This document shows positions 1,678 through 53,312 of a stretch of DNA of 64,000 bases, piece after piece (position 1 is the stretch's first letter; each line of letters begins with the position of its first letter). The position numbers and the translations under genes were made by a program. Source of the stretch: Thiomonas sp. FB-Cd (GTDB taxonomy: Bacteria > Pseudomonadota > Gammaproteobacteria > Burkholderiales > Burkholderiaceae_C); assembly GCF_000733775.1 (NCBI RefSeq), contig NZ_JPOE01000002.1, positions 310,001-374,000 on the forward strand, given 5' to 3'. Below the pieces are notes generated by a model, which worked only from the letters and a program-made list of their open reading frames with translations, ran no database searches and had not been told where the DNA came from.

Positions 1678-2452
1678 CGAAACATGCGCAATACGCGACG
1701 GGCCAAGGTTACGCCAAGACCCTGCGGGCGTTGCAGATCGAGCTGGTGAAGTTCCAGAAACACCTGATCGCGCATGGCAGCCGCATTCTCATCATCCTCG
1801 AAGGCCGCGACAGCGCGGGCAAGGACAGTACCGTCAAACGCATCGTGGAACACCTCTCGCCACGCGAGACAAGAGTGGTGGCTCTGAGCAAGCCATCAGA
1901 CAGGGAAGCCAGTGCTTGGTATTTTCAGCGATTTGTCCCGCATCTCCCGCTTGCCGAGGAGTTCGTGCTGTTCAATCGCAGTTGGTACAACCGCGCCGGG
2001 GTCGAGTGGGTGATGGGCTTTTGCACCGAGGCGCAGTACGAAGAGTTCATGGAAACAGTCCCCGTCTTCGAACAGATGCTGGTGCGATCGGGCATCCATT
2101 TGTTCAAGTATTACCTGGACATCAGCAAAGTTGAGCAAAAAAGCGCCTTAAAGACCGGCTCACCGATCCGCTCAAGCAATGGAAGATGAGCCCTATCGAT
2201 GCCGTGGCGCAAAAGCATTGGAAGGACTACAGCGTCGCGCGCAACGCGATGTTCGCACGGACCCACACGGCCCTGGCACCATGGACCGTTGTTTGCGCCG
2301 ACGATAAGAAGCGCGCACGATTGAGCCTGATCATGGACCTGCTTGCGCGTCTGGATTACAAAGGCAAGGATCACGCGTTGCTGCGCCCAGACCCCGCCAT
2401 CGTTTTTGGCTATACAGATCAGATCGTCGCGGAAGGCCTGATTGCGCCATGA
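1674..2452 (+). pseudogene. ppk2: polyphosphate kinase 2 (PPK2), interrupted by a -1 frameshift
   Basis: PPK2 uses polyphosphate to phosphorylate nucleotides. The Walker A motif GRDSAGKDST, the lid-region RVVALSKPSDRE and the Walker B-like FNRSWYNRAGVE are all present. The GTG start at 1674 overlaps the phaA stop by four bases. After codons for SKVEQK the frame is wrong: reading one base back inside the run of six A's near 2134-2140 restores KKRLKDRLTDPLKQWK and continues to the stop at 2450-2452. The full frame would give about 259 residues, normal for a short PPK2. The shift sits at an A6G run, so it may be a sequencing error, a real mutation, or tolerated slippage. The protein family is certain; the functional state is not. 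Confidence 0.85.
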
Positions 2453-2953: not shown

Positions 2954-3042
2954 CGGGGTCAATCCATCTGTGACCTCGGTACCCCATGGTGGCCGGAAGG
3001 CGGCCAATATCTGAATCGATGCTCATCGCTGTGTGCAAAGCC

Positions 3043-3489
3043 ATGTACAAAAAAATTCTCATCCCTCTTGATGCCAGTGCAACGGCACAAACAGCTGCTG
3101 AACACGCCATCGCATTGGCGCGGGCGTGCAAGGCAGCTCTGCGCTTTATTACCGTCATTGACCTCAACGGTCTTGTCGGTGGGGTGCCAAGTATCGTGGA
3201 AGTGGTGAACAACGATGCGCGCCTGACGCTCGATGATTGGATGAACCAGGCCTCTCAGTGGGGGTTGGACGTGAGCACCGCCATCGTCGAGACCAACCCG
3301 AAAATTCCGCGTGTGGCCGACGCCATTGTGACTGAGGCGAGTCGATGGGGCGCCGAACTGATTGTCGTCGGAAGCCACGGGCGCAGCGGCGCTCGACACC
3401 TGATGCTCGGCAGCGTTGCTGAAGGTGTGGCTCGGCTCAGCAGAGTGCCGGTGCTTATCGTGCATCCAGGCGAAGCACCTGTGGCCTGA
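3043..3489 (+). CDS. universal stress protein, UspA family
   Basis: A 148-residue protein beginning MYKKILIPLDASATAQTA, the standard Usp first strand, and ending with the ATP-binding signature VVGSHGRSGARHLMLGSVAE (G-x2-G-x9-G-S/T). This signature implies nucleotide binding, as in the MJ0577 branch. Start codons further upstream exist, but 3043 matches the family N-terminus. It follows the release-factor-like gene on the same strand. Usp proteins of this type are often induced in stationary phase or low oxygen, which fits the storage-related neighbours; this regulation is inference. Confidence 0.9.
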   Translation: MYKKILIPLDASATAQTAAEHAIALARACKAALRFITVIDLNGLVGGVPSIVEVVNNDARLTLDDWMNQASQWGLDVSTAIVETNPKIPRVADAIVTEASRWGAELIVVGSHGRSGARHLMLGSVAEGVARLSRVPVLIVHPGEAPVA

Positions 3490-6668: not shown

Positions 6669-7855
<1,187 letters not shown>

Positions 7856-12281: not shown

Positions 12282-12804
12282 GACTGGATGTGTTCCCGGC
12301 GTGGGCAAGGGCAATGCCGCGTGTGCTTGGAAGGGATGCGCTTCACCGCAAAGGGCCGTGCCTGAGATAGAACACGTGTGCGCCATATGGGGCGATTTTC
12401 CAAGGCCGCCATTGGTACAGGTGCGTCGATTGGGGAAAACGCATATGCAGCAGCAACAGCGACGCGCGCGACGAGGGCGTGTCTCGTCGTTGAGTGAGAG
12501 CGTTGGCGTGCGTGCAACGGTTGGGCGCAAAGCCGTGATCGGAAATCGCAGCGGCCGCTTCGCCCATCGCGCTCGAATGGGGGAGGGGCGTGGGCTGATG
12601 AAACGAAGCGATGTCATGCAAGGCGGCGAACATCACGCCGCGCACTGAAGGCCGTGCGTGCTGCGTGGGAGTGGCTGCAAAGGCCGGATAGAAGGATCCG
12701 GGCCTTGCCCCGTCGTCAGTGCGAGGTCCGATTGTGGAATGCGAGATCGAGCGTTAGGAATCGGCGCGCTACACAACAGCCTGAGCTCCCAAAACCCTGC
12801 GCGA
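12282..12804. other. intergenic stretch between exporter operon and PHA operon
   Basis: About 520 bases where two operons converge. Frames on both strands are open but their translations are arginine/histidine-rich, as expected from non-coding GC-rich DNA. I saw no convincing terminator hairpin or repeat. Confidence 0.45.
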
Positions 12805-13929
12805 TCAACGTCCCTGGGCCACGATCCAGCGGCCAATCTCGGGCCATACATCCCTGAGCGTGCGCGCGCCCATGAACAGACCCACATGCCCTCCCGGGAC
12901 CATGCGCTTTTTAGTCTTGTCCTTGGGTGTGCTGCAAAGCGCCTCGGCAGCGAAAACCTGCTGGTGACCGGTGATGTCGTCGCTTTCCCCGGCGAGCAGA
13001 TAGAGGGGGCAGGTGATGGCCTTAAGGCTCAGCGTGCGACCGAGCGCGACATACTTGCCTTTGGCCAGAAAATTGCGCTTGAATAGTTGATCAATCACCT
13101 GCAGGTACCAGCGGCCGGGTAGGTCAAGCGGATTCTCGTACCAGCGTTCGAACGCCTCTGTCTTGGACAGCCAGATGGGGTCGTCGATGTGCTCGTAAAG
13201 ATCGATGTGCTCCTGCACGTAATGCTGCTCGGGGTGCATGTTCTTCCATCCAGCGAGCATGTATTTGCCGAGCATCAGCCCGCCGCCGGAGGCCACGAGA
13301 TCTTCATAGAAGCTCATCGGGCTGGCCTTGACCATTTTCACCAGTGAACCATTGCCTGCGTGGGTGTCGATCGGCGAGCCGGCCAGCACCAGGCTGGCGA
13401 TCTTCTCGGGAAAGCGCGCCGCCAGCATCGCCGCTGTCCACCCACCTTGACACAGGCCAACCAAGTTGACGTGACCACCCAGATCATCGATGCAAGCCAG
13501 CAGCTCGGCCAGGTATTGATCAACTTCCAGGTCTTTCATGTCGGGCGTGGCACTGTGCCAGTCGGTAAGGAACAACCGGTTGACGTTGGCGCCGCGCAGG
13601 GTCTGCATCAAGCTCTGGCCTTGGTGGTAGTCGGCGATCATCGAGGTGTGGCCGGCATACGGCGCAATCACCAGCGTCGCAGCGCCCGTGGCATCCGGCG
13701 CCGAATAGTCACACAGCGTCAGCGTGCGCAGCTTGAGCCGCTCGGTATGCGCCGTGGCAAGGTGCGGCTTGAGGCCGCCGTGCAGGCGCGACTCCTCGGC
13801 GACAAACTTGACGTTGCGGGCGAGAAGATCCATGCCCTGCTCAGCCATATCAGCGGCCAGTTGCACGGGCCAGAAAATAGGCACGTTGATGTTCGGCACC
13901 TTCGATGGCTGCTTGGTCGCCTGGGTCAT
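12805..13929 (-). CDS. PHA-synthase/depolymerase-like alpha/beta hydrolase
   Basis: A 374-residue alpha/beta hydrolase with a cysteine nucleophile elbow, GLCQGGW, near residue 158. This cysteine-type lipase box is shared by PHA synthases and some intracellular PHB depolymerases. Other landmarks are VIAPYAGHTSMIADYHQGQS, LTDWHSATPDM (oxyanion side), a late acidic residue in LLAGESDDIT and the histidine in PGGHVGLF, giving a Cys-Asp-His triad. It is much shorter than PhaC and lacks its N-terminal domain. The start at 13929 has a strong GGGAGGA site. Last gene of the six-gene operon. Turnover of PHB or its oligomers is the best inference; a polymerase role is unlikely but not excluded. Confidence 0.75.
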   Translation of the reverse strand: MTQATKQPSKVPNINVPIFWPVQLAADMAEQGMDLLARNVKFVAEESRLHGGLKPHLATAHTERLKLRTLTLCDYSAPDATGAATLVIAPYAGHTSMIADYHQGQSLMQTLRGANVNRLFLTDWHSATPDMKDLEVDQYLAELLACIDDLGGHVNLVGLCQGGWTAAMLAARFPEKIASLVLAGSPIDTHAGNGSLVKMVKASPMSFYEDLVASGGGLMLGKYMLAGWKNMHPEQHYVQEHIDLYEHIDDPIWLSKTEAFERWYENPLDLPGRWYLQVIDQLFKRNFLAKGKYVALGRTLSLKAITCPLYLLAGESDDITGHQQVFAAEALCSTPKDKTKKRMVPGGHVGLFMGARTLRDVWPEIGRWIVAQGR

Positions 13930-13948
13930 AACGATAGTCCTCCCGCCA

Positions 13949-16309
13949 TCAAACGATGGCAAAACGTTTGAACACGATGTGCTTGGCCTGATCAAGCGCC
14001 AGTGCGAACACCAAGACACACGCGATGAGCGCGGCGATTAGCCCCCAAGGCAGTGCAGCCATGAGTACGCCGAAGCCGGCCAAAAAGCTCACCACGAAGA
14101 CGTCACCAAGGCTTGCAAGGAGCATCCAGCGCCCGGGCGCCAACGACCACAAGCGGCCGTCGCTGCGCAGCACATAGATACTCGCCTGGGTGGTGAAGAC
14201 CAGGATCAGGAAGACGACGGTCTGCAACTGCGGCGCAGAAAGCCCTAGGGTGGCATGTGTCCACCAGTAAAACGAAAATGAGAACGCAAGCGACAGCGCC
14301 GCGAACACGAGGGCCGCGGCGACCAGTTTGCGCACCTGCCAGCGCTGTGGACGCGGCGCGGGTTGCACGCGGTCAGTGGCGATCGTCATGGTGACGAAAT
14401 CATTGGTGAACAGCAGCAGTACGATCAGCGTGGGCGAGATGACGAAGCGTCCCGTGAGCCACAAGCCCAGAGTGAGGAAGACAACGATTTCGAAGGTCTT
14501 GAGAGTCTTGTTCAATGTGTAGGTGAGCATACGCCGGTGCACTTCGCGCCCGGTGCGCACCACGGTGAGCACACCGGACAGGCCCGGGTCGGTGAGCACC
14601 ACACCGGCGGCAGCCTTTGCCACATCGGTCGCGCTGGCCACGGCCACGCCAAGCTCCGCCTGACGCAGTGCCGGAGCGTCGTTGACGCCGTCGCCGGTCA
14701 TGCCGGTGACGTGGCCGTTGCGCTGCAGCGCCTGCACGATGGCGTGTTTGTCCTCGGGCAGCACACGGGCGAACAGATCACAGTTTTCTGGGTCGCGCAG
14801 CGCGTCGCCCTTTGCCTCGCATACGCGTGTGCCGAGGCCCAGCGCAGCACCGATGGCGCGCGCGGTTTCCAGTGCATCGCCTGTGGCCATGCGTACGCGC
14901 ACGCCGAGAAGCGTGAGTTGGGCGATCAGGTCGGCGGCGTCCGGGCGCGGCGGATCGGATAAGCCGACGAGGCCGAGGAGCTGCAATGCATCATCGTTCC
15001 CCGCCGCAACCGCCAGCACGCGCGCGCCCCGGGCGGCGAGCTGTGTTTGCGCGGCGTCGAGCGCGCCCTGTTGCGCGCGATCGAGCCGGCAAAGGGGCCC
15101 GATAACGCTGGCCGCCCCCTTCAAGGCATGCCAAGGCTTGCCGTCGGCGAGGTACACGCCTTCGCTGCGGCGGGTGGCCGGGTCGAAAGGGTGAAAGGCT
15201 TGACGCAGCGGCGCACCCTGCAGAAGCCCTTGCTTGCGCGCTGGGTCGAGAACGGCCAGATCCAATGGATCCTGCGTGGCGTCGTCGCTGGCCAGTGCGG
15301 CAGCGTACAGCACCTGCTTGGCGTCGGTGCCCGCTGCCAAGGGCATCACGGCTTGCAGTGTGAGCGTGTTCTGTGTCAGTGTGCCGGTCTTGTCCGACAC
15401 CAGCGTGTCCATCGCAGCGGCTTCTTCCACGGCCGGGAGCCGCGTGACCAGGACGCCCTTGTGCGCGAGTTGCATGCTGCTGATCGCAGTGGCCAGCGTA
15501 TAGGTCGCCGGCAGCGCTACCGGGACGGACGCCACCAGAAGCATCAGCGCGAACACCGCGGTGTCCAGCATGGGCATATCGTGCGACAAGGCATAGGCGA
15601 CGACGAGCACGACCAGAACCGCATCGAACACCACAAGTCGCTCGACAATACCGAAAATTGTGCGCTGCATATGACTCGGCGCGCTTGACGTGCGCACGAG
15701 TTCCGCGGTGCGGCCGAAAAAGGTATGTGCGCCCGTGCCCGTGACGATGCCGCTTGCCTCTCCTTGCCGCACGATGGACCCGGCGTAGGCCGATTTTCCA
15801 GGGCCAGCGTCCACCGGCAGCGATTCGCCGGTCAGTGCAGCCTGGTCGAGTGCCACGTCGCCTTCGAACAGTTGCAGGTCGGCTGGAACCAAGTCGCCAG
15901 CGCGTACGTGCACGACGTCTCCCGGCACCAACTGCTCGGCGGGGACAGTGCGCCAGACGCCGTCGCGCAGGACGCGGGCGTTGACGTGCAGTTGCTTGCG
16001 CAGCAAGGCCAGCGCGTCCTTGGCGCGCTGTTCCTGGGCGAAGGCGACCACCGCATTGAACAGCAGCAATGCGGCGATCACGATGGCCTCCGGGCCACGC
16101 CGCAACAAAACCTGCAGCACGATCACCGCTTCGAGCATCCACGGCACCGGCGCCCAGAACTTACCCAAAAATTGACGCCAAGCCGCGACTGCCTTATCCG
16201 GGATTGCATTAGGCCCCGACTGCGCCAGGCGCCGATTCACCTCGTCGTCGGTCAGGCCGCGCGTGCGATCGGTGGTGGCTGTTTCGGCAACGAAGGCTGC
16301 GGGGTTCAT
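13949..16309 (-). CDS. plasma-membrane-type P-type ATPase, probable proton pump (class IIIA)
   Basis: A 786-residue P-type ATPase. The N-terminal cation-ATPase domain has LTDDEVNRRLAQSGPNAIP, the actuator loop has TGES (ALTGESLPVDAG), the membrane motif is PVALP, the phosphorylation site is DKTGTLTQN and the hinge is MTGDGVNDAPALRQAE. The PVALP motif and the length match class IIIA H+-ATPases of plants, fungi and some bacteria rather than Ca2+ or heavy-metal pumps, and there are no N-terminal metal-binding CxxC domains. In an operon with pta, ackA and phaC it could use fermentation ATP to export protons. Transported ion is inferred from family. Confidence 0.85.
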   Translation of the reverse strand: MNPAAFVAETATTDRTRGLTDDEVNRRLAQSGPNAIPDKAVAAWRQFLGKFWAPVPWMLEAVIVLQVLLRRGPEAIVIAALLLFNAVVAFAQEQRAKDALALLRKQLHVNARVLRDGVWRTVPAEQLVPGDVVHVRAGDLVPADLQLFEGDVALDQAALTGESLPVDAGPGKSAYAGSIVRQGEASGIVTGTGAHTFFGRTAELVRTSSAPSHMQRTIFGIVERLVVFDAVLVVLVVAYALSHDMPMLDTAVFALMLLVASVPVALPATYTLATAISSMQLAHKGVLVTRLPAVEEAAAMDTLVSDKTGTLTQNTLTLQAVMPLAAGTDAKQVLYAAALASDDATQDPLDLAVLDPARKQGLLQGAPLRQAFHPFDPATRRSEGVYLADGKPWHALKGAASVIGPLCRLDRAQQGALDAAQTQLAARGARVLAVAAGNDDALQLLGLVGLSDPPRPDAADLIAQLTLLGVRVRMATGDALETARAIGAALGLGTRVCEAKGDALRDPENCDLFARVLPEDKHAIVQALQRNGHVTGMTGDGVNDAPALRQAELGVAVASATDVAKAAAGVVLTDPGLSGVLTVVRTGREVHRRMLTYTLNKTLKTFEIVVFLTLGLWLTGRFVISPTLIVLLLFTNDFVTMTIATDRVQPAPRPQRWQVRKLVAAALVFAALSLAFSFSFYWWTHATLGLSAPQLQTVVFLILVFTTQASIYVLRSDGRLWSLAPGRWMLLASLGDVFVVSFLAGFGVLMAALPWGLIAALIACVLVFALALDQAKHIVFKRFAIV

Positions 16310-16331
16310 ATGCAAGCGCTGAGCAGCGAGG

Positions 16332-17615
16332 TTATTTCACCCATGCCGCCCAGCCCAGAGACAGCAGCAGGGTAAAGGCCAGCCAAGCCGCCGCCGGCAG
16401 CATGGCCTTTTGCCTGGAGATGCCCAAAGCGTACCCCGCTTTGAGAAGATTGTTGCTTCCGGTTGCGATGAGCACAGCGGTGATCACCGCCGTTTCGGTC
16501 ACCTGGAAATGTCCGGCCAGCAGTGAAAGCACGAAGGGATCAATGTCGGTGAACCCAACAAGGAAGCTCAGCACGTGCAAGCCGGTCGCTCCGAAGTGCT
16601 GCGTGACGAAGCTCGTGATGGCCGCGAAAGCCACGAAAAGTCCGGCGAACAGGAATGCAACGGGCAGGTCAAGTGGATTGGCGCTGTGTGCTCCAAGCGT
16701 CGCCCCGGGGGCTTGCGGCGCCTGTCGGCGGCCGCGTTGCCAAAGCCACCAGGTCACGCCAAGCGAGCCAGCCAGCAGCAAAGTGAACGGTAGTGCAAGG
16801 TGCAATGCCGCGGGCCAGTGCCCCAGTGCGACGATCACGATCCACAGCCTGACATACATCATCGCGGTCGCCAGGACGGTGGCCGCGGGCGCTTGTGCAG
16901 CGATGCCCGTGTCGAGTCGTGCTTGCCGCGCAAGCACGACGGTAGCTGCCGTGCTGGAATACACGCCGCCGAGAACGCCGGTGAGCAATGTGCCTGCTTT
17001 CGGAAACAAATAGGCGTGCGCCAGATAGCCCGCGTAAGAAATGGTGGAAATCAAGACGACGGCCATCCAGACTTTGGCGTAAGTGATGTCGACGAGGCCA
17101 GGGATCGGTGTGTTGGGCAGCAGCGGGAGAACGAGACCAGCCAGGATGAGGAACTTGACCAGGGTCACGCCCTCGGCCATCGGCATGGCGTCCGACAGGC
17201 GACGGATCAGCGGCTTTTCGGCGAGCATCAGAATGGCGACGATCAATACTGCGGCCACCAGCCAGTCGGGCTGCGTGAGCACAAGCGGGCCGAGCGCAAA
17301 GGCAAGCAAAGCAATGACCGAAGGCAACAGCGCGCCGCCCCCTTCCGCCCCAGCGGCGCCGTGCCGAGCCAGATCCACTGCGAGCCAAACCGCCAGCGCT
17401 GCCAGGCCCGCAAGGTAAAGCCCACGCGGCGAGGAGCCGTCGAGAAGCCAAAGCACGAAGCCCGCCGCGCCGATAAGGGTTAGCGTGCGTGTGGTGCCGA
17501 AGCCGATGCCTTCATCCTGCGCGCGGCGGTAGCTGTGCAGCTCAAGCCCGAGCACAAAGCTGAGCACCGCGGTGGCGGCGAATTGCAGGAGAAGCGGTGG
17601 TAGGGTACCGGTCAT
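16332..17615 (-). CDS. MgtC/SapB-type membrane protein with DUF4010
   Basis: A 427-residue polytopic membrane protein. The N-terminal part (AATAVLSFVLGLELHSYRR, later RTLTLIGAAGFVLWLL) matches the MgtC/SapB domain and the C-terminal 200 residues match DUF4010, together about 12-13 membrane segments. The function of this fusion family is unknown; it is often annotated as a membrane protein near acid- or energy-stress genes. It starts 4 bases downstream of the ackA stop and ends 22 bases before the proton-pump ATPase start, so all three should be co-transcribed. Confidence 0.8.
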   Translation of the reverse strand: MTGTLPPLLLQFAATAVLSFVLGLELHSYRRAQDEGIGFGTTRTLTLIGAAGFVLWLLDGSSPRGLYLAGLAALAVWLAVDLARHGAAGAEGGGALLPSVIALLAFALGPLVLTQPDWLVAAVLIVAILMLAEKPLIRRLSDAMPMAEGVTLVKFLILAGLVLPLLPNTPIPGLVDITYAKVWMAVVLISTISYAGYLAHAYLFPKAGTLLTGVLGGVYSSTAATVVLARQARLDTGIAAQAPAATVLATAMMYVRLWIVIVALGHWPAALHLALPFTLLLAGSLGVTWWLWQRGRRQAPQAPGATLGAHSANPLDLPVAFLFAGLFVAFAAITSFVTQHFGATGLHVLSFLVGFTDIDPFVLSLLAGHFQVTETAVITAVLIATGSNNLLKAGYALGISRQKAMLPAAAWLAFTLLLSLGWAAWVK

Positions 17616-17619
17616 GCGT

Positions 17620-18822
17620 TCACCTTCCGGCCGTTACCGTCAGCAGGGCTGCGGCCTGCGCCGCCATCACGGCTTCTTCGTCGGTGGGCAGCGCAAGGAC
17701 GGGGATGCGGCTGGCGCTTGAGGCGATATTCAGATTGCCATTCGCGTTCGCCTCGGCGTTGAGCGCCAAGCCCAACCAGGCAAGCCTCTGCACCACGGCG
17801 GCCCGGATCATGGGTTGATGGGTGCCAATTCCACCGGTGAACACCAGTGCGTCGAGCCCGCCCAAAGCGGCAACCACCGATCCCATCTGGCGCACGATAC
17901 TGGCCACGAACACGTCGATGGCTTGCTGGGATCGCGGGTCCTTGCTGGCGAGCAGGTCGCGTGTGTCAGCGCTGATCTCCGACACACCGAGAAGTCCGCT
18001 TTGCTTGTAGAGCAGGTCGCTGACTTCTTCCGGTCGCATGCCATCGTGCTGGAACCACTGCAGCACAAGGCCCGGGTCGAGCGCGCCGCAGCGTGTGCCC
18101 ATCACCAGTCCGTCAAGCGCCGTAAACCCCATTGTCGTCGTAACGCTTTGAAGGCTGCGCATGCCACACAGGCTTGCGCCACCGCCTAGATGCGCGACGA
18201 CCACGGCTCCATGCGCCTGCTCGCCGAGCACGGCAGGAAGGCGCCGGCTAATGGCGTCATACGACAGGCCATGAAAGCCATAGCGCTGGTAGCCCCGCTC
18301 ATGCCAAACGCGTGGAATCGCGTAGCGCCGCTCGGCATCAGTGTGGTTTGCATGGAACGCGGTGTCGAAACAGGCCACCTGCGTCGCGTCGGGCAAGATG
18401 GCTTGTGCCGCTTGCACGCCCGCAAGACCAGGGCCCTGGTGCAGCGGCGCGAGGCTTGTGAGGTCCTGCAGATCAGCGAACACGCCGGGCGTGATGCGCA
18501 CGGCTTGGTTGTAGCGCAGTCCTCCGTGAACGATGCGATGCGCCACAACCGTGGGGCGTGGCGCATCGCACGCTCGCATCAGCCAATCGATAAGCCAGGT
18601 GGTTTCGCCGCCGATGTCGCCGCGCAGCGCATTGGGCGCCTCAGTGCGGGAGGGCTCGCCGGTTCGGCTATAGGTCAAAGTGGGTTTGCCGTCTGGCGCG
18701 TCGATTTCACCACGCAGAGTCGCGGTCGGAAGGCCCGAGGCACCGCGGGCGATGGCGTGATCGAACAAAGCGAACTTGAGGCTGGCCGAACCCGCATTGA
18801 GGCTGAGTACCGAGGAGCTCAT
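17620..18822 (-). CDS. ackA: acetate kinase
   Basis: A 400-residue acetate kinase, standard length. It makes ATP from acetyl phosphate and ADP, releasing acetate. Recognisable parts are VLSLNAGSASLKFALFDH at the start, the substrate region VVAHRIVHGG, the catalytic-site CFDTAFHA, VVVAHLGGGASLCGM in the nucleotide domain, GALDPG, and FTGGIGTH near the end. The ATG at 18822 overlaps the stop of the upstream pta-fusion gene by four bases (ATGA), so the two enzymes of the acetyl-CoA to acetate route are translationally coupled. Confidence 0.95.
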   Translation of the reverse strand: MSSSVLSLNAGSASLKFALFDHAIARGASGLPTATLRGEIDAPDGKPTLTYSRTGEPSRTEAPNALRGDIGGETTWLIDWLMRACDAPRPTVVAHRIVHGGLRYNQAVRITPGVFADLQDLTSLAPLHQGPGLAGVQAAQAILPDATQVACFDTAFHANHTDAERRYAIPRVWHERGYQRYGFHGLSYDAISRRLPAVLGEQAHGAVVVAHLGGGASLCGMRSLQSVTTTMGFTALDGLVMGTRCGALDPGLVLQWFQHDGMRPEEVSDLLYKQSGLLGVSEISADTRDLLASKDPRSQQAIDVFVASIVRQMGSVVAALGGLDALVFTGGIGTHQPMIRAAVVQRLAWLGLALNAEANANGNLNIASSASRIPVLALPTDEEAVMAAQAAALLTVTAGR

Positions 18823-20240
18823 GCAGGCACCATCGTGCTGGTTGCCAGAACCAGAAGCACGGCCAGTGCGCACGATGCCATGCGCGCATCCGAAAGGTCG
18901 GCCCTGCTGGTGAGCACGACGGGCACGCGCGTGCCCAATACGATACCCGCGACCTTGGCCTCGGCGAGATACTCCAGCTGTTTTGCGAGCATGTTGCCCG
19001 CCTCCAGATCGGGTGCCACAAGGATGTCGGCTTGACCGGCAACGCTCGAGACAATGCCTTTGGTATCCGCGGCGCGTTTGGACACGGCGTTGTCGAATGC
19101 GAGCGGGCCGTCGAGCAGGCCGCCCGTGATCTGTCCGCGGTCCGCCATCTTGCACAGGGCCGCTGCATCAATCGTGGAGGGAATCTTGGGGGTGACGGTT
19201 TCCACTGCCGAGAGAATGGCGACCCGGGGCTGTGCGATGCCAAGTGCATGCGCCAGATCGATCGCGTTTTGGACGATGTCTCGCTTGGCTTCCAGATCTG
19301 GCGCGACGTTGACCGCCGCATCGGTAAGCAGCTGCAAGCGGGGTTGGCCCACGGCATCGATCACGAACACATGGCTGATGCGCCGTGCCGTGCGCAGTCC
19401 CGTTTGCGGATCGACTACGGCATGCATGAGCTCATCCGTGTGCAGCGACCCCTTCATCAATGCCTGTACCTCTCCCGTGCGCGCCATGGCTACCGCTTTT
19501 TCAGCCGCGGCATGACTGTGCTCGGTCGCCACCAAGGGATAGGCCGTGAGATCAATGCCAGCGGCAGCGGCAGCGGCGCGCATTTTGGCTTCCGGGCCCA
19601 CGAAAATCGGGCGGATCAGCCCCGCCATCGCCGCGTCCACGGCGCCACCCAAGGAAACGGCATCCACCGCGTGCACCACAGCCATCGAGAGGGGTGGTCG
19701 CCCTGCCAATGCAGTGCGGGCCTGTTCAATGATTGCTCGCAGCTTTACGCCCGGGTCGCGCAGCTCCAGCCTGGGCAGATGCACGCGCGGGCGGCTGACC
19801 TTTTCAGTTGGCACGAGCACGTGGGCGGATCCCTCGACAACAGTTTCGTTGCGCTGATTGACCACGGTGCAGTGCAGGGTTGCGCGGGGCGCACGCTCGG
19901 CAATGGTGTCGATCGCCGTGACGGTCACCGTGACCCGCACGGTGTCGCCCAGGAACAACGGCTTGAGAAATTTCAGATCCTGGCTCAAGTACACCGTCCC
20001 CGGCCCTGGAAGCTGGGTGCCAAGGACATTGGAAATCAGCGCGGCCGACCACATGCCATGCGCCACCACCCTGTGGAAGGGATCGCTTGCCGCGAAGGTT
20101 GCATCCACGTGTGAAGGGTTCACATCCCCTGACATCAGCGCAAAGGTCTGCACTTCGTCCTCGGTAAAGTTTCGCGTCAGCGAAGCCGAGTTTCCAACCT
20201 GCAGTTCAGCAATGGGGTGGTTTTCGATGAGGTCGGCCAT
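18819..20240 (-). CDS. bifunctional MaoC-like hydratase / phosphate acetyltransferase
   Basis: A 473-residue fusion. Residues 1 to about 140 form a MaoC hot-dog domain (SLTRNFTEDEVQTFALMSGDVNPSHVD with the catalytic Asp/His, then VAHGMWSAALIS), normally an R-specific enoyl-CoA hydratase. From about 165 to the end is a Pta/Ptb-type acyltransferase (IFVGPE, ALMKGSLHTDELMHAV, RISHVFVID, TDAAVNVAPDLEAKRDIVQNA). The fusion could link (R)-3-hydroxyacyl-CoA chemistry of PHA metabolism to acyl-phosphate formation. The start at 20240 (MADLIENHP) matches homologues; another in-frame ATG lies at 20264. It sits 29 bases after phaC and overlaps ackA. Confidence 0.9.
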   Translation of the reverse strand: MADLIENHPIAELQVGNSASLTRNFTEDEVQTFALMSGDVNPSHVDATFAASDPFHRVVAHGMWSAALISNVLGTQLPGPGTVYLSQDLKFLKPLFLGDTVRVTVTVTAIDTIAERAPRATLHCTVVNQRNETVVEGSAHVLVPTEKVSRPRVHLPRLELRDPGVKLRAIIEQARTALAGRPPLSMAVVHAVDAVSLGGAVDAAMAGLIRPIFVGPEAKMRAAAAAAGIDLTAYPLVATEHSHAAAEKAVAMARTGEVQALMKGSLHTDELMHAVVDPQTGLRTARRISHVFVIDAVGQPRLQLLTDAAVNVAPDLEAKRDIVQNAIDLAHALGIAQPRVAILSAVETVTPKIPSTIDAAALCKMADRGQITGGLLDGPLAFDNAVSKRAADTKGIVSSVAGQADILVAPDLEAGNMLAKQLEYLAEAKVAGIVLGTRVPVVLTSRADLSDARMASCALAVLLVLATSTMVPA

Positions 20241-20269
20241 GGCATATCGGGGGTGGAGGTCCATGAGGT

Positions 20270-22210
20270 TCAGCGTTGCAGCACGTAACTGCCCGGCGCA
20301 TCCATCAGCGGCTTCGCGCCTGCAACGCCCATGCGCGGCGGCGCAGTCATTTGGCTGCTGTGGGCACCCAGCCACGCACTCCAGCGCGGCCACCATGAAC
20401 CATCTTCAGGCGTGGCCTGCGCCAGCCATTGCTCCGGCGCTTGAAAGGCGCTTCCATGCTTGTGCAACGCCCAGTGATAATGCCGCCGTGGGTGCCCCGG
20501 TTCGCTGACGATGCCAGCATTGTGACCGCCGCTGGTCAGCACGAAAGTTACCTCGCTGTGATCCAGCAGATGAATCTTGTATACGGACCGCCAGGGCGCA
20601 ACGTGGTCAGCCTCTGTGCCGACGACAAACCACGGAAGCGGTACATCCTCCACCGTAACGGTCTGGCCGTCCACCTTCCAGCGCCCTTCAGCCAGGTCAT
20701 TATTCAGATAGAGGCCGCGCAGGTATTCGCTGTGCATGCGAGCGGGCATGCGCGTGGCGTCAGCGTTCCAGGCCATCAAATCGTTTGGAGGACGGCGCTG
20801 GCCCATGAGGTAGTCGCGGGTGATGCGTGACCAGATCAGGTCATACGAGCGCAGCATCTCAAAGGCGCCGGCCATCTGCGTGGTGTCCAAATAGCCCTGC
20901 GCCCACATCATGTCTTCTAGGAAGCTCACCTCGCTTTCGTCGATGAACAAGGACAGCTCTCCAGGTTCGGTGAAATCGATCTGCGAGGCCAAAAGCGTAA
21001 CGGTAGCGAGGCGCTCATCGTCCTTGGCCGCCAGGGCGGCGGCCGCGATGGATAAAAGAGTGCCGCCCAAACAGTAGCCGACGGCGTGTACCTTGCGCCC
21101 AGGCTGGATGCGTCCTACCGCGTCCAGCGCGGCTAGAGGGCCAAGCGCGAGGTAATCATCCATCCCGAGTTCGCGGTCCTCGGGGCCTGGATTCTTCCAT
21201 GAGATCATGAAAACTGTGTGGCCCTGGTCGACAAGATACTTGACCATCGAGTTCTGGGGTGAGAGGTCGAGGATGTAGTACTTCATGATCCAAGCAGGTA
21301 CCACCAGAAGCGGCTCGGCCCAAACCTGCGCGGTGGTTGGGCTGTATTGAATGAGCTCAATGAGCCGGTTTCGAAATACCACCTTGCCGGGGGTGAGAGC
21401 GACTTGCTTCCCTGGGAGGAAATTCTCCGTTCCAGCGCGGGGCTGGCCAGTCATGACACGTTGCAGATCATCCATCCAGGCCTTGGTGCCCTCGACCAAA
21501 TTCATGCCGCCAGTCCTGAGCGTGGCATCGATGACTTCGGGATTCGTCAAAGGCGAATTGGTTGGTGCAAGCATGTCCAGCCATTGCCGAGCGGCGAAAG
21601 CAACCACCTGCTCATGATGCCTGGACACACCGCGCACGCCGGATGTGGCATTGCGCCACCAGTCTTCCTGTAACAAGAATGCCTGTTGAAGCAAATTGAA
21701 CGGGTACCGTTGCCAGCCTGGATCGGCGAAACGCCGGTCGTTCGGGGTTGCGGCGATGCAATTGGCTGTATCGCCCATGCCTGGCCGATGCGCTATTGCG
21801 CGAGCGCAATACTCTGCGTAGATGGCCGCATTGCGCAAGGCACTTCCTGCTAACGCAAGGCGTTTGCCCGGCGAGGCGGCAAGGTGTGTCCACCAATCAG
21901 CCGCGGCCAATCCCAGAGACGCGGGTGATAGACCCAGCGTGCGCCGCGCCTGCATGGCGTGCGCGGCGCGATCAATTAATTCAGCCAGCCCCGCGTCGGG
22001 CTGAGGCGGCGGACTCAAGCAAGCTGCCGACTCCGCGCTTGGCGCAGGCACAGCTGCCGCGAGGGAGACACCGATTTGCGGGCGCTCGCCGGGTGAGCCT
22101 GAATCGTGCTGAGCGCCGGTTGGGATGGGGATTTCAGGCGCAGGGGTGATCCCGATCGCGGTACCGGAACGGTTGCGCCGCGAAGCACGGGGTTGCGTGT
22201 TTGATTTCAT
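20270..22210 (-). CDS. phaC: poly(3-hydroxyalkanoate) synthase, class I
   Basis: A 646-residue PHA synthase that polymerises (R)-3-hydroxyacyl-CoA into granules. The PhaC N-terminal domain covers about residues 130-300 (WWRNATSGVRGVSRHHEQVVAFAARQW, FLPGKQVALTPGKVV). The nucleophile elbow GYCLGGTLL carries the catalytic cysteine near residue 377, with the later Asp in GTEADHVAPWRS and His in TSGGHNAGIV. The N-terminal extension of about 90 Pro/Ala/Ser-rich residues is longer than in the Cupriavidus enzyme. The start at 22210 is chosen because GGAG lies six bases upstream; 22216 and 22222 are alternatives. First gene of the six-gene operon, with an FNR-type box upstream. Confidence 0.94.
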   Translation of the reverse strand: MKSNTQPRASRRNRSGTAIGITPAPEIPIPTGAQHDSGSPGERPQIGVSLAAAVPAPSAESAACLSPPPQPDAGLAELIDRAAHAMQARRTLGLSPASLGLAAADWWTHLAASPGKRLALAGSALRNAAIYAEYCARAIAHRPGMGDTANCIAATPNDRRFADPGWQRYPFNLLQQAFLLQEDWWRNATSGVRGVSRHHEQVVAFAARQWLDMLAPTNSPLTNPEVIDATLRTGGMNLVEGTKAWMDDLQRVMTGQPRAGTENFLPGKQVALTPGKVVFRNRLIELIQYSPTTAQVWAEPLLVVPAWIMKYYILDLSPQNSMVKYLVDQGHTVFMISWKNPGPEDRELGMDDYLALGPLAALDAVGRIQPGRKVHAVGYCLGGTLLSIAAAALAAKDDERLATVTLLASQIDFTEPGELSLFIDESEVSFLEDMMWAQGYLDTTQMAGAFEMLRSYDLIWSRITRDYLMGQRRPPNDLMAWNADATRMPARMHSEYLRGLYLNNDLAEGRWKVDGQTVTVEDVPLPWFVVGTEADHVAPWRSVYKIHLLDHSEVTFVLTSGGHNAGIVSEPGHPRRHYHWALHKHGSAFQAPEQWLAQATPEDGSWWPRWSAWLGAHSSQMTAPPRMGVAGAKPLMDAPGSYVLQR

Positions 22211-22237
22211 GCCCATCTCCATAAAGCCTATAGGTTA

Positions 22238-22279
22238 TTTGTAATGCTGCAACGCCGCAGGAAGGTTGATATGCGTCAA
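22238..22279 (-). promoter_or_regulatory. FNR/ANR-type box with matching -10 upstream of phaC
   Basis: The sequence TTGATATGCGTCAA at 22266-22279 matches the FNR/ANR/DNR consensus TTGAT-N4-ATCAA with one mismatch. On the minus strand, 22238-22243 reads TACAAA, a fair -10 hexamer. The centre of the box would be at -41.5 if transcription starts near 22231, the classical position for a class II activated promoter, 20 bases ahead of the phaC start codon. Low-oxygen activation of the phaC operon is the inference. The same box lies about 120 bases before ugd on the other strand. Confidence 0.6.
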
Positions 22280-22392
22280 GCGTAACGGCGGTGGCCATCC
22301 GAGAGTGGACGCGCGCAAGTGCTGCTCCAAACCGCGCCGTGCGCTGTCAATGCACAATAATGGGCTACTGCGACATTACCAAGGATGGATTC

Positions 22393-23718
22393 ATGCGAGT
22401 CACCGTTATCGGCGCCGGGTATGTGGGCCTGGTTACTGCGGCATGCTTTGCCGACGTTGGCAACACCGTTATCTGCGTTGAACGTGACGCTGGACGTATT
22501 GCTGCGCTGGAAAAAGCCCAGGTGCCGTTTTATGAGCCAGGCCTGAGCGAACTCGTGGCACACAACGCGCAGGCGGGACGCATGGGTTTCATGCCCAGTC
22601 TTGCGCAAGGACTCAATGGGGCGCAGGTGTGCTTTATCGCCGTCGGTACGCCGCCACTGCCCACTGGCCAAGCTGACATGAGCCAGGTGCGAGGTGCCGC
22701 CCATGAAATTGGCCAGTACGTCAATGGTCCGCTCGTGGTGGTGCAGAAGTCCACTGCGCCCGTCGGCACGGTCGCCATGGTGCAAGACATCATCGACGAG
22801 GAAATGGCACGTCGCGGCGTACAGCACTGGGTTAGCGTGGTAAGCAATCCCGAGTTCCTCAAGGAGGGATCGGCCATTGACGATTTCACGCGTGGTGACC
22901 GCATTGTGGTGGGTAGCATCGACGAACGTGCCATCGCGGTGATGCGCGACCTGTATCGGCCGTTCAACCGTAATCACGAGAAGATGATGGTGATGAACGC
23001 GGCTAGTGCCGAACTCACCAAGTATGCCGCCAATACCATGCTGGCCACGCGCATTTCCTTCATGAATGAACTTGCCCGATTGGCTGAGGCTGTGGGCGCC
23101 GACATTGAGCAGGTGCGGCTTGGAATGGGGGTGGACCAACGCATCGGCAGCCACTTCCTGTATGCGGGCGCGGGCTACGGCGGATCATGCTTTCCGAAGG
23201 ACGTGAAGGCACTTGCCTTCATGGCGCGCGAAGCCGGCTTGCGCGCCGAACTGGCCGAGGCCGTCGACGCGGTCAACCAGCGGCAGAAGCAGCGCCTGTT
23301 TGAGAAGATTGCCGCACACTTTGCAGCGGATGGACTCAAGGGCCGCACGATCGCTGTATGGGGGCTTGCTTTCAAACCCAATACGGATGACATGCGGGAC
23401 GCCCCCAGCATTGACCTCATTGAAGCCTTGCTCGGGGCGGGTGCCAAGGTCCAGGCCTTTGATCCGGTTGCCATGGAGAGCGCTCGAAAAATCTGGGGAG
23501 CTCGTCCAGGTCTGGAGCTTACGAAAGACGCCGCGTCGGCGCTGCAGGGTGCAGATGCGCTGGTCGTCGTCACTGAATGGCATGCATTCCGCTCACCCGA
23601 CTTCGAGCAGATTGCTTTGCAACTGCGTGCCAAAGTCGTATTTGATGGTCGCAACCTCTGGGACCCGCAGTCCGTGCGCGCCGCGGGGCTGGCCTATTAC
23701 GGGATTGGTCGCGGTTGA
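22393..23718 (+). CDS. ugd: UDP-glucose 6-dehydrogenase
   Basis: A 441-residue NAD-dependent dehydrogenase that oxidises UDP-glucose to UDP-glucuronate for surface polysaccharides. The N-terminal dinucleotide fold starts VTVIGAGYVGLVTAACFADVG; the catalytic cysteine is in GAGYGGSCFPKDVKAL near residue 263; the C-terminal domain contains WGLAFKPNTDDMRDAPS and VFDGRNLWDP. The ATG at 22393 has AAGGATGG upstream; longer in-frame starts lack support. It stands alone, divergent from phaC and converging on the ATP-grasp gene with a 22-base overlap of the 3' ends. Confidence 0.94.
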   Translation: MRVTVIGAGYVGLVTAACFADVGNTVICVERDAGRIAALEKAQVPFYEPGLSELVAHNAQAGRMGFMPSLAQGLNGAQVCFIAVGTPPLPTGQADMSQVRGAAHEIGQYVNGPLVVVQKSTAPVGTVAMVQDIIDEEMARRGVQHWVSVVSNPEFLKEGSAIDDFTRGDRIVVGSIDERAIAVMRDLYRPFNRNHEKMMVMNAASAELTKYAANTMLATRISFMNELARLAEAVGADIEQVRLGMGVDQRIGSHFLYAGAGYGGSCFPKDVKALAFMAREAGLRAELAEAVDAVNQRQKQRLFEKIAAHFAADGLKGRTIAVWGLAFKPNTDDMRDAPSIDLIEALLGAGAKVQAFDPVAMESARKIWGARPGLELTKDAASALQGADALVVVTEWHAFRSPDFEQIALQLRAKVVFDGRNLWDPQSVRAAGLAYYGIGRG

Positions 23719-27605: not shown

Positions 27606-30169
27606 CTAATACCACTGCAAGCCTTTGGCTGAACGTAGCACTTGCAGCCAAAGGCCGCAGGCCAACAGCAAAATGAGGGCGGCGGCCAAGGGTGGCCAGG
27701 TGATGGTGGCGAAGCCCATCACGTGACGCAAAGCGGGAATGAGAGTGACCGCCGCCAGCATGATGCCAACGCTGGCGAACAAGCGACCCAACCAAGGGTT
27801 GTCGATCGGAAACTTCAAGAGCACGGTGTGCGTCCTGTTGCGATTGGCCAAGATTAGCAGGAATAGCACAAGCACCAGAGCGCTGAATATGGTCAAGCGC
27901 AGGCTGGCTTCACCCCAGCCTGCATACGCTTGCAGTAGCGCATATCCGCCCAACAGGATGGCGGCAACGCCAAGCCCTTGCGCCAGTGCCGAAGCGACGT
28001 TCCTGGGCGCAAATGGTGTCGCATTCAATGGGCGTGGCGGGCGGAGCATGAGGTCAATGGCCGACGGCTCGGCCTCGAAGACGATGGAGCAGGCGGGATC
28101 GATGAGCAGTTCCAGAAGCACGATATGCACGGGCAACAGTAGCACCGGCCAGTGCAGTAGTGCAGGTACGAGGGCCAGAGCGATGATGGGCAAATGCACC
28201 GCAAATACGAAGCGGGTGGCCTTGGTGATGTTGTCGTAAATGCGCCGGCCGCCACGGATCGCACCGACGATGCTTGCAAAGCTGTCATCAAGAAGGACCA
28301 AGGCGGCTGCCTCGCGAGCCACGTCCGTGCCGCGCTCCCCCATGGCGATACCCACATCGGCGGCCTTTAGCGCGGGCGCGTCATTGACGCCGTCGCCGGT
28401 CATTGCCACGACTTCGCCTGCCTCTTGCAGCACGCGGACCAAGCGAAGTTTCTGCTCTGGCTTAAGGCGCGCACAAAGGTCTACATAATGGAGGCGTTCT
28501 CGCAGCGCGACATCATCCAACGCCATGATTTCAGGACCCGTGATGACTTCAGCTCGCTCGGACAGACCAACTTGCTGGGCAATCGCGCGCGCCGTGGCGG
28601 GATGATCGCCGGTGAGCATCAGCACGCGCACGCCAGCAGCACGGCATTGCGCAATGGCGGCGGGCACATCCGCTCGTGGCGGATCGATCAATCCGATCAG
28701 ACCAAGGAACTCAAAATCGAAGTCATGCTGGCTCTTGGGCCATCCGCTTGTGGCGCCTGCAGACCTCCAGATTCCACGTGCCACACCCAGAACGCGCAGG
28801 CCGCGTGCCGCCATCGCTTCCACGCGCTGGTGGATCGCTTGACGATCCGCTTCGGGCAGGTGGCACAAGTCGGCTACCGCCTCAGGCGCGCCCTTCGTTG
28901 CCAGAAGATGAGCATCGGGAGCCGTGCCCGAGAGCACACGGGTTAGCGCCAGGATGTCGGGGTCAAGCGCGTACTGGAACTCAGCGCTGCGTTCGTCACG
29001 GATATGCTCGGTGCCTGCCAAGCGCGTGTGGCCGAATTCCTGGATGGCTTGCTCCATCGGATCGTAAGGGTTCGGGGGCGTGGCCAGCATGCCGAACTCG
29101 ATCAGTGCGTGAAAGTCCTCGGGAAATGCGGGTTCGGTGGCTTTGAGCCGGACGTTTCCAACCGCAAGTTCGCCAACCTGCATGCGGTTTTGCGTCAGCG
29201 TGCCTGTTTTGTCTACAGCCAGGACGGTGATTGCGCCCAGAGCCTCCACGGCCGGCACGCGGCGCGTGAGGACTTTGTTTTTTGAGAGACGCCAAGCGCC
29301 CAAGGCCAAGAATACGGTGAGAATGACCGGAATCTCCTCTGGCAAGATGGCCATGGCCAGAGCAATGCCCACCAGCAAGCTATCCAGCAGTGCACGACCG
29401 TCCCATAGTCGGTCAGCACCAGCGAAGTCGCCAGCGTGAGGGCGATGAGCGTGAGATTGCGGATCAGCGTGCGTGAGGACCGCTGCAACCCGGAGCCGGC
29501 CTCTTCAGTGGTCGTCAAGGCGAGGCCGATGCGACCGACAGCGGTCGCGGAACCCGTGGCCTGGACTACGGCAAGGCCTGCGCCCTTGGTCACCACCGTG
29601 CTGGCGAAGAGCTCCGCTGAGCCGTCACCGCCCGGCGCGGGAAGTTCATGCAGTGCCGCATTCGCCCGCTTGTCCACCGGCACGGACTCGCCGGTGAGAA
29701 GGGATTCATCCGCCGTGAGCTGGCCCTGAAGCAGTTGAGCGTCTGCTGCGATACGGTCGCCTTCGTTCAGCACGAGCAGGTCGCCGCGCACCACATCGCG
29801 TCCTGCGATGCGCGTCTCCTTTCCGTCGCGGATCACCAGCGCGCGAGGCGCCGAGAGATCGCGCAGCGACTCCAGGGCGCGCTCCGTCTTGCGTTCCTGG
29901 GCCAGGGTGATGCCAATGACCACGAACACGAAGGCAAGGAGGAAAATGGCTTCGGCCTGGTTGCCCAGCAGCAGATAGATGCTACCGGCGACTAAGAGCA
30001 TCAGAAACATCGGCTCGCGCAGCACGCCAAGCGCGATACTAAAAAGGGTCCTGGGCGCGCTTCCCGGCAAAAGGTTGGGGCCTTCGGACTGGAGTCGCTG
30101 GACAGACTCGGCAGTGGATAGGCTCTGGATTTTGCTGGCTTTCGCTCCTTGTGCTTGGGGTGGCTCCAT
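27606..30169 (-). pseudogene. P-type cation-transporting ATPase with a frameshift
   Basis: Two adjacent frames together encode one P-type ATPase of about 850 residues. The N-terminal part (from ATG 30169) has the cation-ATPase N domain and TGES (LLTGESVPVD). It loses frame after LVLTDYGTV near 29403-29412. The second part continues with GRALLDSLLVGIALAMAILPEEIPV, DKTGTLTQNRM and MTGDGVNDAPALKAAD. Insertion of one T after the TAT codon would restore LTDYWDGRALLDSLL, so a single-base deletion explains the break. The PEEIP motif places it near Ca2+-type pumps, ion unproven. It precedes the VIT transporter. Either a recent null mutation or a sequencing error. Confidence 0.85.
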
Positions 30170-30495: not shown

Positions 30496-31606
30496 TCCGG
30501 CCCTGTGAAGTATTAAGCTGCGTAGCGAACGCGCCGGTCCTGGAAGTAGCTCATCACACGCTGCGGGTTTTGTTCCAGCATCGCCATATGGTCGTTCGCA
30601 GCTTCGCGTAATTTGGCCTTGGTTCGCACCGGCACGCGTTTGCCCATTTCCTGTTTGAGATCGGCGTTGAGCCTCTCCTCAGGGTTGAGTTGGGGGCTGT
30701 AACTGGGCAGGTAAAACAGCTCGATCTGCGCGTTGTGCAAGGCGACCCACGCCTTCACCAACTTGCTGTGATGCACCCTCAGGTTGTCCAGAATCAGGAA
30801 CACCTTCTTGCCTGCATCCTTGATCAACGCCTGCAAGAACTCGATCAGCTTGTCGGCGTCAAACGCCTCGTCGATGATCATCCAGCGGGTCTTGCCCTGG
30901 TTGGTGACCGTGGCGATCATCGAGAGCTTCTGGCGCGTCCCGCCCACCGCCATCGCCACGGGGGTTTTGCCCGCAGGGGCAAAGCTTCTGCCGCGCACGT
31001 CCGTGTTGACCAGCGCGGTTTCGTCTCCCCAGTGAATTTCCGCGCCCTCAACCCTGGCGCGCTGCTCGATGGCGGGGTATTCCCCCTCCAGCCAAGCCTG
31101 CACCGCCGCGGGGCTTTGCTCATAGGCTCGCTTGATGGGCTTTTGCGGCGTAAAGCCCCAGCGGGTGAGGTACTTTCCAACGCTGCGCACCTGCAGTTTG
31201 ATGTCGAACTCTTGTTCAATGAGTTGCATCACCGCAGCGCGGCTCCACAGATGGAAGTCCATCTTGAGTTGCTCGGGACGTGTGTCAATGATCAGGCGCT
31301 GGATCGTCTCTTCTTGCGCTTGACTGAGCACCCGACCGTCGCCTCTGGCGCGTCCCCGCCGAGTCGGCCGGATGGCGCTCCAGCCGCCAGCCTCGTACAA
31401 GTCGATGGCCGCTCGAACCGGCGGGTAACTCAGCCCCGTCATGTCCACGATCTGCATGATCTTGACGCCCCGCTTGTGCAACCTCACGACTTGCTTGCGC
31501 CGCTCGTGAAGTTGCTCGAGTGTTTGCTTTCTTGCGTTTTCTTTTTCCATCATCAATGGATCAAAAAACTTGCTGAAAGTTCATATTTTATTGGGCCTTA
31601 TCTATA
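30496..31606 (-). mobile_element. IS630-family element, intact copy
   Basis: Ends were estimated by comparison with the interrupted copy at 51573-53887: both share sequence from TCCGGCCCTGTGAAG on the left to GGGCCTTATCTATA on the right and differ outside. The ends share a short inverted GGCCC. Length is about 1.11 kb, normal for IS630. It carries one transposase gene. It seems to have cut a small hypothetical gene on its right side. Confidence 0.8.
30513..31556 (-). CDS. IS630-family transposase, intact
   Basis: A 347-residue transposase: an N-terminal helix-turn-helix (VVRLHKRGVKIMQIVDMTGLSYPPVRAAIDLY, residues 22-55), a winged-helix segment and a DDE domain. The three acidic residues are visible in IHWGDETALVN, FLILDNLRVHHSK and YSPQLNPEERLNADLK. 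The frame is continuous. It cuts and pastes the element, usually into TA dinucleotides in this family. Confidence 0.92.
   Translation of the reverse strand: MMMEKENARKQTLEQLHERRKQVVRLHKRGVKIMQIVDMTGLSYPPVRAAIDLYEAGGWSAIRPTRRGRARGDGRVLSQAQEETIQRLIIDTRPEQLKMDFHLWSRAAVMQLIEQEFDIKLQVRSVGKYLTRWGFTPQKPIKRAYEQSPAAVQAWLEGEYPAIEQRARVEGAEIHWGDETALVNTDVRGRSFAPAGKTPVAMAVGGTRQKLSMIATVTNQGKTRWMIIDEAFDADKLIEFLQALIKDAGKKVFLILDNLRVHHSKLVKAWVALHNAQIELFYLPSYSPQLNPEERLNADLKQEMGKRVPVRTKAKLREAANDHMAMLEQNPQRVMSYFQDRRVRYAA

Positions 31607-52125: not shown

Positions 52126-53312
<1,187 letters not shown>

Follow-up and report, generated by a model that had tools for sequence, protein, structure and literature searches.

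A six-gene operon of Thiomonas sp. FB-Cd joins polyhydroxybutyrate, acyl-phosphate and proton-pump genes behind an FNR-type box: a variant of known clusters with a recurring ion-pump link

Genes for polyhydroxyalkanoate (PHA) synthesis and for acyl-phosphate formation lie together in clusters known from Burkholderia and rhizobia. The lxa locus of Burkholderia cenocepacia J2315 and B. contaminans is a cluster of 50 genes (PMC6127331), for which Table 2 of another paper lists ackA, phbB, phaC, pta, a cation ATPase, universal stress proteins and a CRP-family regulator; the same paper cites the induction of lxa by low oxygen as a finding of work published in 2013 (PMC4981469). Strain H111 is without lxa (PMC3759415), and Anr is needed for the anoxic survival of H111 (PMC9104464). 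In phaC group D1 of Burkholderia sensu lato, clusters of the type phaC-(phaJ-pta)-ackA-fabI have been described, and they were proposed to store surplus acetate rather than to export ions (PMC8231600). In Bradyrhizobium diazoefficiens, phaC2 (bll6073) is a target of FixK2 and is raised in microoxia, PhaC2 being assumed inactive as a polyhydroxybutyrate (PHB) synthase (PMC9104804, PMC6515984, PMC10888616). Here we analyze an operon present on a 64-kb stretch of DNA from Thiomonas sp. FB-Cd (contig NZ_JPOE01000002.1, positions 310,001 to 374,000; hereafter the window), which contains, in this order, phaC, a gene for a fusion of MaoC with a phosphate acetyl- or butyryltransferase (Pta/Ptb), ackA, and genes for a DUF4010 membrane protein, a class IIIA P-type ATPase and an alpha/beta hydrolase. 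We conclude that this operon is a real and conserved variant of the clusters mentioned above, and that its new aspect is the link with an ion pump.

The operon shares with lxa an acetate kinase, a PHA polymerase, a phosphate acetyl/butyryl transferase and a cation-transporting ATPase, and genes for a universal stress protein (USP) and a PhbB-like protein lie in the island around it. Of the lxa gene types phaC, pta, ackA, cation ATPase, USP and CRP/FNR regulator, all except the regulator occur in a stretch of about 25 kb that runs from Hsp20, which is located 2.3 kb to the left of the window, as far as position 22279; the genome has 17 HTH_Crp_2 matches, all of them outside this stretch. Unlike lxa, the operon has six contiguous genes, including those for DUF4010 and the hydrolase, behind one box, whereas the lxa ATPase gene BCAM0318 is some 20 locus numbers away from the phaC gene BCAM0297. 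The arrangement of phaC, fused hydratase-transferase and kinase is the same as in group D1, which has FabI or PhaB where the operon has DUF4010, the ATPase and the hydrolase. The Sinorhizobium meliloti cluster ORF-pta-ack-fabI (cited in PMC8231600; ORF, open reading frame) has a pta-ack pair related to that of group D1, but its first ORF is hardly alike, it is under PhoB, phosphate-starvation control, and the passage on it does not mention a pump. Like the operon, phaC2 of B. diazoefficiens is a phaC paralogue behind a CRP/FNR-family TTGA-N6-TCAA box, but pta and ackA are at the distant locus numbers blr3457 and blr3458 in that species. For Thiomonas itself PHB genes have been reported, and the available passages name KdpABC and do not name an H+ P-type ATPase (PMC2829063). 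The core of the operon is not novel, because it has been published as part of lxa, as the phaC-phaJ/pta-ack-fabI group and, as regards phaC2, under FixK2 control. A first-pass annotation of the window knew of no description of the six genes as one unit, and none was found in a limited search of the open-access literature.

We consider it probable that the six genes constitute an FNR-activated low-oxygen operon that combines PHB storage, substrate-level ATP formation and a proton pump. When oxygen falls, an FNR protein would bind at position -41.5 and the six genes would be switched on together on one mRNA. PhaC, with PhaA, PhaB and the phasin encoded in the island, would polymerize 3-hydroxybutyryl-CoA and provide a sink for carbon and reducing power, and the MaoC-Pta/Ptb fusion and the kinase would convert acyl-CoA via acyl-phosphate into ATP without respiration. 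The class IIIA P-type ATPase would spend this ATP on the export of H+, so that membrane potential and internal pH are maintained when the respiratory chain cannot do so. The Cys-type hydrolase probably mobilizes PHA or an acyl thioester, and the DUF4010 protein may be a membrane partner. A P-type pump, with one H+ exported per ATP, may work against a larger gradient than a reversed F1Fo, as might be an advantage for a genus that lives in acid. It is a long-standing question how respiring bacteria maintain a charged membrane when oxygen is lacking. If the operon functions as proposed, it unites under one switch a polymer for storage, ATP formed at the substrate level and a pump dedicated to protons, and it becomes testable whether a P-type pump, rather than a reversed F1Fo, spends fermentative ATP in anoxia.

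The six genes are located on the minus strand between 22210 and 12805, with gaps of 5, -4, 4, 22 and 19 bases. The ORFs and junctions were read directly and the families were matched in Pfam and NCBIfam (Table 1), which bears out the tightly spaced layout of the first-pass annotation. The tight gaps, together with the gene order kept in seven same-genus genomes, predict that the genes form one transcription unit, as had also been claimed. A GGAG precedes the ATG at 22210, so that this is the likely start of phaC and not the ORF start at 22222. Although the phaC product does not reach the cut-off of the class I PHA synthase model TIGR01838 (539.3 versus 622.65 bits), we regard it as PhaC-like because a GYCLGG box and the Cys, Asp and His motifs were recognized by eye, and because of its PF07167 and PF12551 matches. 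Inspection by eye also identified the catalytic motif DVNPSHVD in the MaoC half, and the Cys nucleophile box GLCQGG with catalytic D and H motifs in the hydrolase. The hydrolase has no PhaC_N match in Pfam, and it scores slightly higher against class III PhaC (120.9) than against the intracellular PHB depolymerase PhaZ, TIGR01849 (102.6; cut-off 300.75), both scores being below the cut-off. The ackA gene is the sole match to the acetate-kinase family PF00871 in the genome. A Pfam search with the DUF4010 protein at E 10 gave nothing besides PF13194, and a link to MgtC was therefore rejected. Structure predictions for the DUF4010 protein and the hydrolase, made from alignments of 3 and 4 rows, had mean predicted local distance difference test values of 46.3 and 43.6 and were not used. 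The H+ type proposed for the P-type ATPase agrees with its score above the cut-off of the family model TIGR01647. Its best solved chain is the plant H+-ATPase AHA2 (5ksd), and the motifs of the membrane residues Asn106 and Asp684 of AHA2 have aligned counterparts in FNAVVAF (position 84) and NDFVTMTI (position 636), so that both residues are kept.

Upstream of phaC lies the sequence TTGACGCATATCAA, which differs by one mismatch from the full FNR/ANR consensus TTGATNNNNATCAA. If the TACAAA is the -10 element, its position relative to the box places the dyad at -41.5, and transcription is predicted to start at about 22231. The first-pass annotation had claimed a one-mismatch box with a -10 at the class II distance; the arithmetic of the positions and the fixed spacing within the genus uphold this. 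TTGACGCATATCAA is the only TTGAY-N4-RTCAA sequence within the window and belongs to the three window sites with at most one mismatch to the full consensus; genome-wide there are 32 TTGAY-N4-RTCAA sites versus 10 for a reversed-pattern control. In eleven other same-genus loci the sequence before phaC extends for 600 bases or more, and nine of them have kept the box with a -10-like hexamer at the fixed spacing of 22 nucleotides (nt). Including the window, the hexamer has TACAA in nine of the ten box loci and TCATAA in L132 (L and G numbers are our labels for loci and genomes). The two other loci, L129 and L133, retain one intact half-site and the spacing, and the box was not found in four further same-genus loci that have merely 53-284 bases upstream. 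A gapless alignment on the box shows eight invariant columns among the 13 between -19 and -7, versus two among 78 flanking columns. Candidates for a plain sigma-70 promoter were sought across 12300-22450, where none was found (shuffles 2.1), and such a promoter for the operon was rejected; terminator-like sites in the same region were not above shuffles (10 versus 8.1, standard deviation 3.0).

The genome encodes at least three FNR proteins (L154, L155 and L156) with a C-x2-C-x5-C motif, a fourth Cys and ExxSR, which were found when 10 of the 17 HTH_Crp_2 matches were read. With the Fnr model PRK11161, the L156 protein has a score of 148.4, under the cut-off of 228. FixK2 of B. diazoefficiens, by contrast, is not known to be an iron-sulphur sensor itself. 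Fifteen of the 32 box sites of the genome were read for their context. The same geometry occurs before ccoN, a classical low-oxygen gene (L148 1-1527, minus strand; TIGR00780, 743 bits over 583.15), where a TTGAC-N4-GTCAA box stands 22 nt before TACCTT. The gene for the L156 FNR protein starts at a distance of about 0.8 kb from one box, and another box lies near a molybdopterin oxidoreductase gene. Because of the footprint, the enrichment of boxes, the geometry at ccoN and the four-cysteine FNR proteins, an FNR-type low-oxygen switch is a well-supported prediction for the operon, and the oxygen response that had been proposed would follow from it. Two other observations concern boxes of this genome. 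A piece of a P-type ATPase gene flanks the opposite side of the ccoN box. The phasin gene left of the window is preceded by a CTGAT-N4-ATCAA site; a promoter of the operon type was rejected for it, since a -10 is absent at the 22-nt spacing.

The fusion was sought in 25 same-genus genomes at a threshold of at least 70% identity and is present in 18, seven of which carry all six genes in order (that of the window, G003, G006, G011, G014, G021 and G023). Among these, phaC of G003 is truncated by a contig end, phaC of G023 matches in two pieces, and G014 has an extra gene for a flavoprotein disulphide reductase before the ATPase gene. Another seven genomes carry phaC-maoCpta-ackA-DUF4010, near a contig end in two of them (G005 and G018), two carry the first three genes, and one has a contig too short for a decision. 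G001 lacks phaC but keeps the other five genes, with the ATPase gene split across two contig ends. Outside the genus, L043 has phaC-maoCpta-ackA-flavoprotein-ATPase-hydrolase, with 59-78% identity over the five shared genes. Hence, the gene order is conserved beyond the strain, contrary to the finding that would have refuted the first-pass annotation. The hydrolase is found at E <= 1e-70 in five of 250 genomes of the order, including that of the window, and with the looser limit of E <= 1e-60 it is found in 26 of the 28 genomes of the genus, in many cases elsewhere in the genome; in six contexts of standalone copies that were inspected no telling neighbours were seen, these being by look mostly an APC-like transporter and an MFS protein.

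The wider core was surveyed in the best 80 of 586 MaoC-Pta loci in named genomes. The fusion gene is followed by ackA in 73 of the 80 loci and preceded by phaC in 26, and DUF4010 is found in two, L039 and L040, both from the same genus. The scan for boxes took in the 450 bases that precede the projected maoC-pta or phaC start and the 30 or 200 bases that follow it; it gave 15 exact boxes in 14 loci, where 0.79 would be expected from the remaining parts of these loci (an enrichment of about 19-fold). Three of the 80 loci (L039, L040 and L042) come from same-genus genomes that are already part of the comparison above; without them, 13 of 77 are boxed. An exact box is present in 11 of the 22 loci with phaC and upstream sequence, versus three of the 54 loci without phaC; four more phaC loci start at a contig end and are outside the 22.

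Using a threshold of 220 bits or more, we found a P-type ATPase gene within 10 kb of the core in eight of the 80 loci. It lies downstream on the same strand, at most 3 kb from the fusion, in six (L039, L043, L048, L049, L076 and L116), adjoining ackA in L048, L049, L076 and L116, and is farther away in L041 and L093, on the opposite strand in L041. All five core-linked ATPases that were checked (L041, L043, L048, L049 and the contig-cut L116) exceed the TIGR01647 cut-off. A gene for an F-type ATPase beta subunit lies within 10 kb in four loci (L071, L074, L075 and L109). For these loci and L177 the score of the "alternate F1F0" model is close to or higher than that of atpD; because it is below its own cut-off in all five, "N-ATPase-like" is the most that can be claimed. 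The core thus appears to have been joined repeatedly to an ATP-driven ion pump, which is the new element here, and this linkage supports, without proving, that fermentative ATP drives ion export. The ATPase was also followed independently of the core: relatives at E <= 1e-170 occur in 28 of the 250 genomes of the order (including that of the window) at 32 places, and 25 of the 30 places outside the genome of the window were inspected. In L170 (8620-17023), genes for an H+ P-type ATPase that is 75-76% identical to the window ATPase, a carbohydrate phosphorylase, an acetate kinase and a phosphoketolase follow each other in one run on one strand. Genes for a phosphorylase and a phosphoketolase also lie upstream of a 46% identical ATPase gene in L198, and L200 has only short pieces of both. 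The combination of phosphoketolase, acetate kinase and "proton-translocating P-type ATPase" was not found in the limited open-access literature. The proposed ATP-to-ion-export logic recurs with the enzymes of another store (the L170 run) and with another pump (F-type, N-ATPase-like), and the ion-pump link deserves experiments. It is even conceivable, though we give it a low probability, that the core (PHA synthase, hydratase-Ptb fusion and acyl kinase) is a modular proteobacterial cassette under oxygen control in which stored C4 units, PHB among them, are turned into ATP by way of a C4 acyl-phosphate, and that it has repeatedly captured a dedicated ion pump (an H+ P-type or N-type F-ATPase); if so, the cassette would let a stored polymer directly sustain ion gradients in anoxia.

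Some further observations concern pump genes. In L177 (753-10584), an F-type ATPase operon with the beta gene first is followed by a gene that by look is metallo-hydrolase-like and one for a PHB_depo-like hydrolase. Eighteen stretches of the 4.4-Mb genome of the window match P-type ATPase, some being pieces of one gene; one of them (C2:2153284-2154240), 74% identical to the operon ATPase, holds an internal stop. A second P-type ATPase gene in the window is split into overlapping ORFs (27606-29378 and 29213-30169, minus strand) and is probably interrupted.

Several findings weigh against an oxygen-controlled operon for storage and proton export. The full gene set is kept in only seven of the 18 same-genus genomes, genes for the ATPase, DUF4010 and the hydrolase being variably present, and in the remaining seven of the 25 genomes the transferase part alone matches, at 46-52% identity. 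The invariance of the half-sites is partly a matter of construction, because the sites were picked with the box pattern. Few of the 15 box sites that were read have an evident low-oxygen neighbour and several are inside ORFs, and half of the phaC loci in the survey (11/22) are without an exact box. As to the pump, the operon ATPase has Glu at the position of Arg655 of AHA2; no P-type ATPase was found within 10 kb in 72 of the 80 core loci, many of which are contig-cut stretches; the L198 ATPase, at 614.2, is barely below the TIGR01647 cut-off; and 22 of the 25 ATPase neighbourhoods are without the queried PHA, acetate kinase, phosphorylase and phosphoketolase genes, a USP match being present in seven of the 25. 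Finally, scores for the transferase disagree as to its substrate, as discussed below.

The alternative that survives best, although we think it rather unlikely, is that the operon ferments PHB to an acid. PHB would then be burned via a C4 acyl-phosphate, yielding ATP and a C4 acid: the hydrolase or reverse thiolysis would provide (R)-3-hydroxybutyryl-CoA, MaoC would interconvert it with crotonyl-CoA, and the Ptb-like half and the kinase would follow; in the many relatives that have a FabI-type enoyl reductase, butyrate could be formed. The fusion of MaoC to the transferase fits this route, as do the scores of the transferase half against the solved Ptb 7vg9 (225 bits) and Pta 7t88 (57 bits). 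The transferase half scores below the cut-off of the phosphate acetyltransferase model TIGR00651 (67.2 versus 311.2). On the other hand, NCBIfam calls the transferase a phosphate acetyltransferase, the acetyl-named subfamily models PRK08190 and PRK11890 (454.8 over 413) being reached and the Ptb model not (300.9 versus 410.5), and the kinase fits acetate, not butyrate, kinase models. Acetyl-phosphate, which the first-pass annotation had named as the intermediate, is not established, because the "Pta" half is closer to Ptb than to classical Pta. Eighteen of the 80 loci have a same-strand gene within 4.5 kb that we label FabI-like, given PF13561 in the case of the L041 homologue and the fabI described in PMC8231600, but the operon of the window is without FabI. 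Likewise, the hydrolase has PHB_depo_C, and in L041, L079 (cut) and L174 its gene comes immediately after ackA, but it is slightly nearer to class III PhaC than to PhaZ. Since a synthase and a possible depolymerase share one operon, the direction of the flux is ambiguous, and the earlier statement that PHB carbon pays for ATP has to be softened: synthesis as an electron sink and breakdown as a fuel are both possible.

Less credible still is that the operon serves acid or stress survival, in which the pump would guard the internal pH, the PHB and acyl-phosphate genes would be general stress passengers and oxygen would be just one input among several. Thiomonas inhabits acid mine drainage (PMC2829063), USP, Hsp20 and PPK2 genes lie beside the operon, and USP adjoins related ATPases. 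However, the footprint has the form expected of an FNR class II promoter and is common to ccoN, and boxes are also present at this cluster in records of Massilia, Telluria, Sneathiella and Azospirillum. That the six are ordinary genes without shared function, their order being inherited within one genus, is already disfavoured and very improbable, for although three of the six have been gained or lost inside the genus, the distant L043 keeps five of them, with a flavoprotein gene replacing DUF4010, and ATPase-ackA pairings occur elsewhere.

Table 1. Coordinates of the operon, its promoter elements and neighbouring features (window positions unless stated otherwise)
Feature	Position	Strand	Match or remark
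FNR/ANR-type box TTGACGCATATCAA	22266-22279	-	one mismatch to TTGATNNNNATCAA
-10-like TACAAA	22238-22243	-	begins exactly 22 nt after box; class II geometry
phaC, class I-like PHA synthase	ORF 22222-20270, likely start ATG 22210	-	PF07167, PF12551
MaoC (R-hydratase)-Pta/Ptb fusion	20264-18819	-	PRK08190, 676.6 bits over cut-off 282; gap 5 after phaC
ackA, acetate/propionate-family kinase	18822-17620	-	TIGR00016, 304.3 bits over 293.4; overlap 4
DUF4010 membrane protein	17615-16332	-	PF13194, 171.6 bits; gap 4
Class IIIA (H+) P-type ATPase	16309-13949	-	TIGR01647, 682 bits over equivalog cut-off 615.5; gap 22
PhaC/PhaZ-fold alpha/beta hydrolase	13929-12805	-	PF06850 PHB_depo_C and DUF3141 over cut-off; gap 19
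Thiolase, PhaA-like, outside operon	490-1677	+	PF00108/PF02803
PPK2 polyphosphate kinase, two overlapping ORFs	1674-2452	+	PF03976
Universal stress protein	3019-3489	+	PF00582
Hsp20, phasin, PhaB-like reductase	L180 3705-6033, left of window		PhaB-like ends at window base 32

The neighbouring island (Table 1) contains phaA, phaB and phaP at about 19-21 kb from the operon phaC. A second phaC is located on contig C5, where its neighbours resemble phaA, phaB and phaR by look. PPK2 is near the operon in L125, L126, L129 and L130 too, and PPK2, USP and efflux genes adjoin it in L125, L126 and L130. In the window, the PPK2 profile is spread over the two ORFs (6-154 and 166-228), which points to a split gene or a frameshift. 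The window also contains two pairs of ORFs with identical first 45 residues (6669-7619, minus strand, with 52362-53312, plus strand; and 30513-31553 with 53325-53834, both minus strand), which by look are transposase-like and probably represent repeated insertion-sequence genes.

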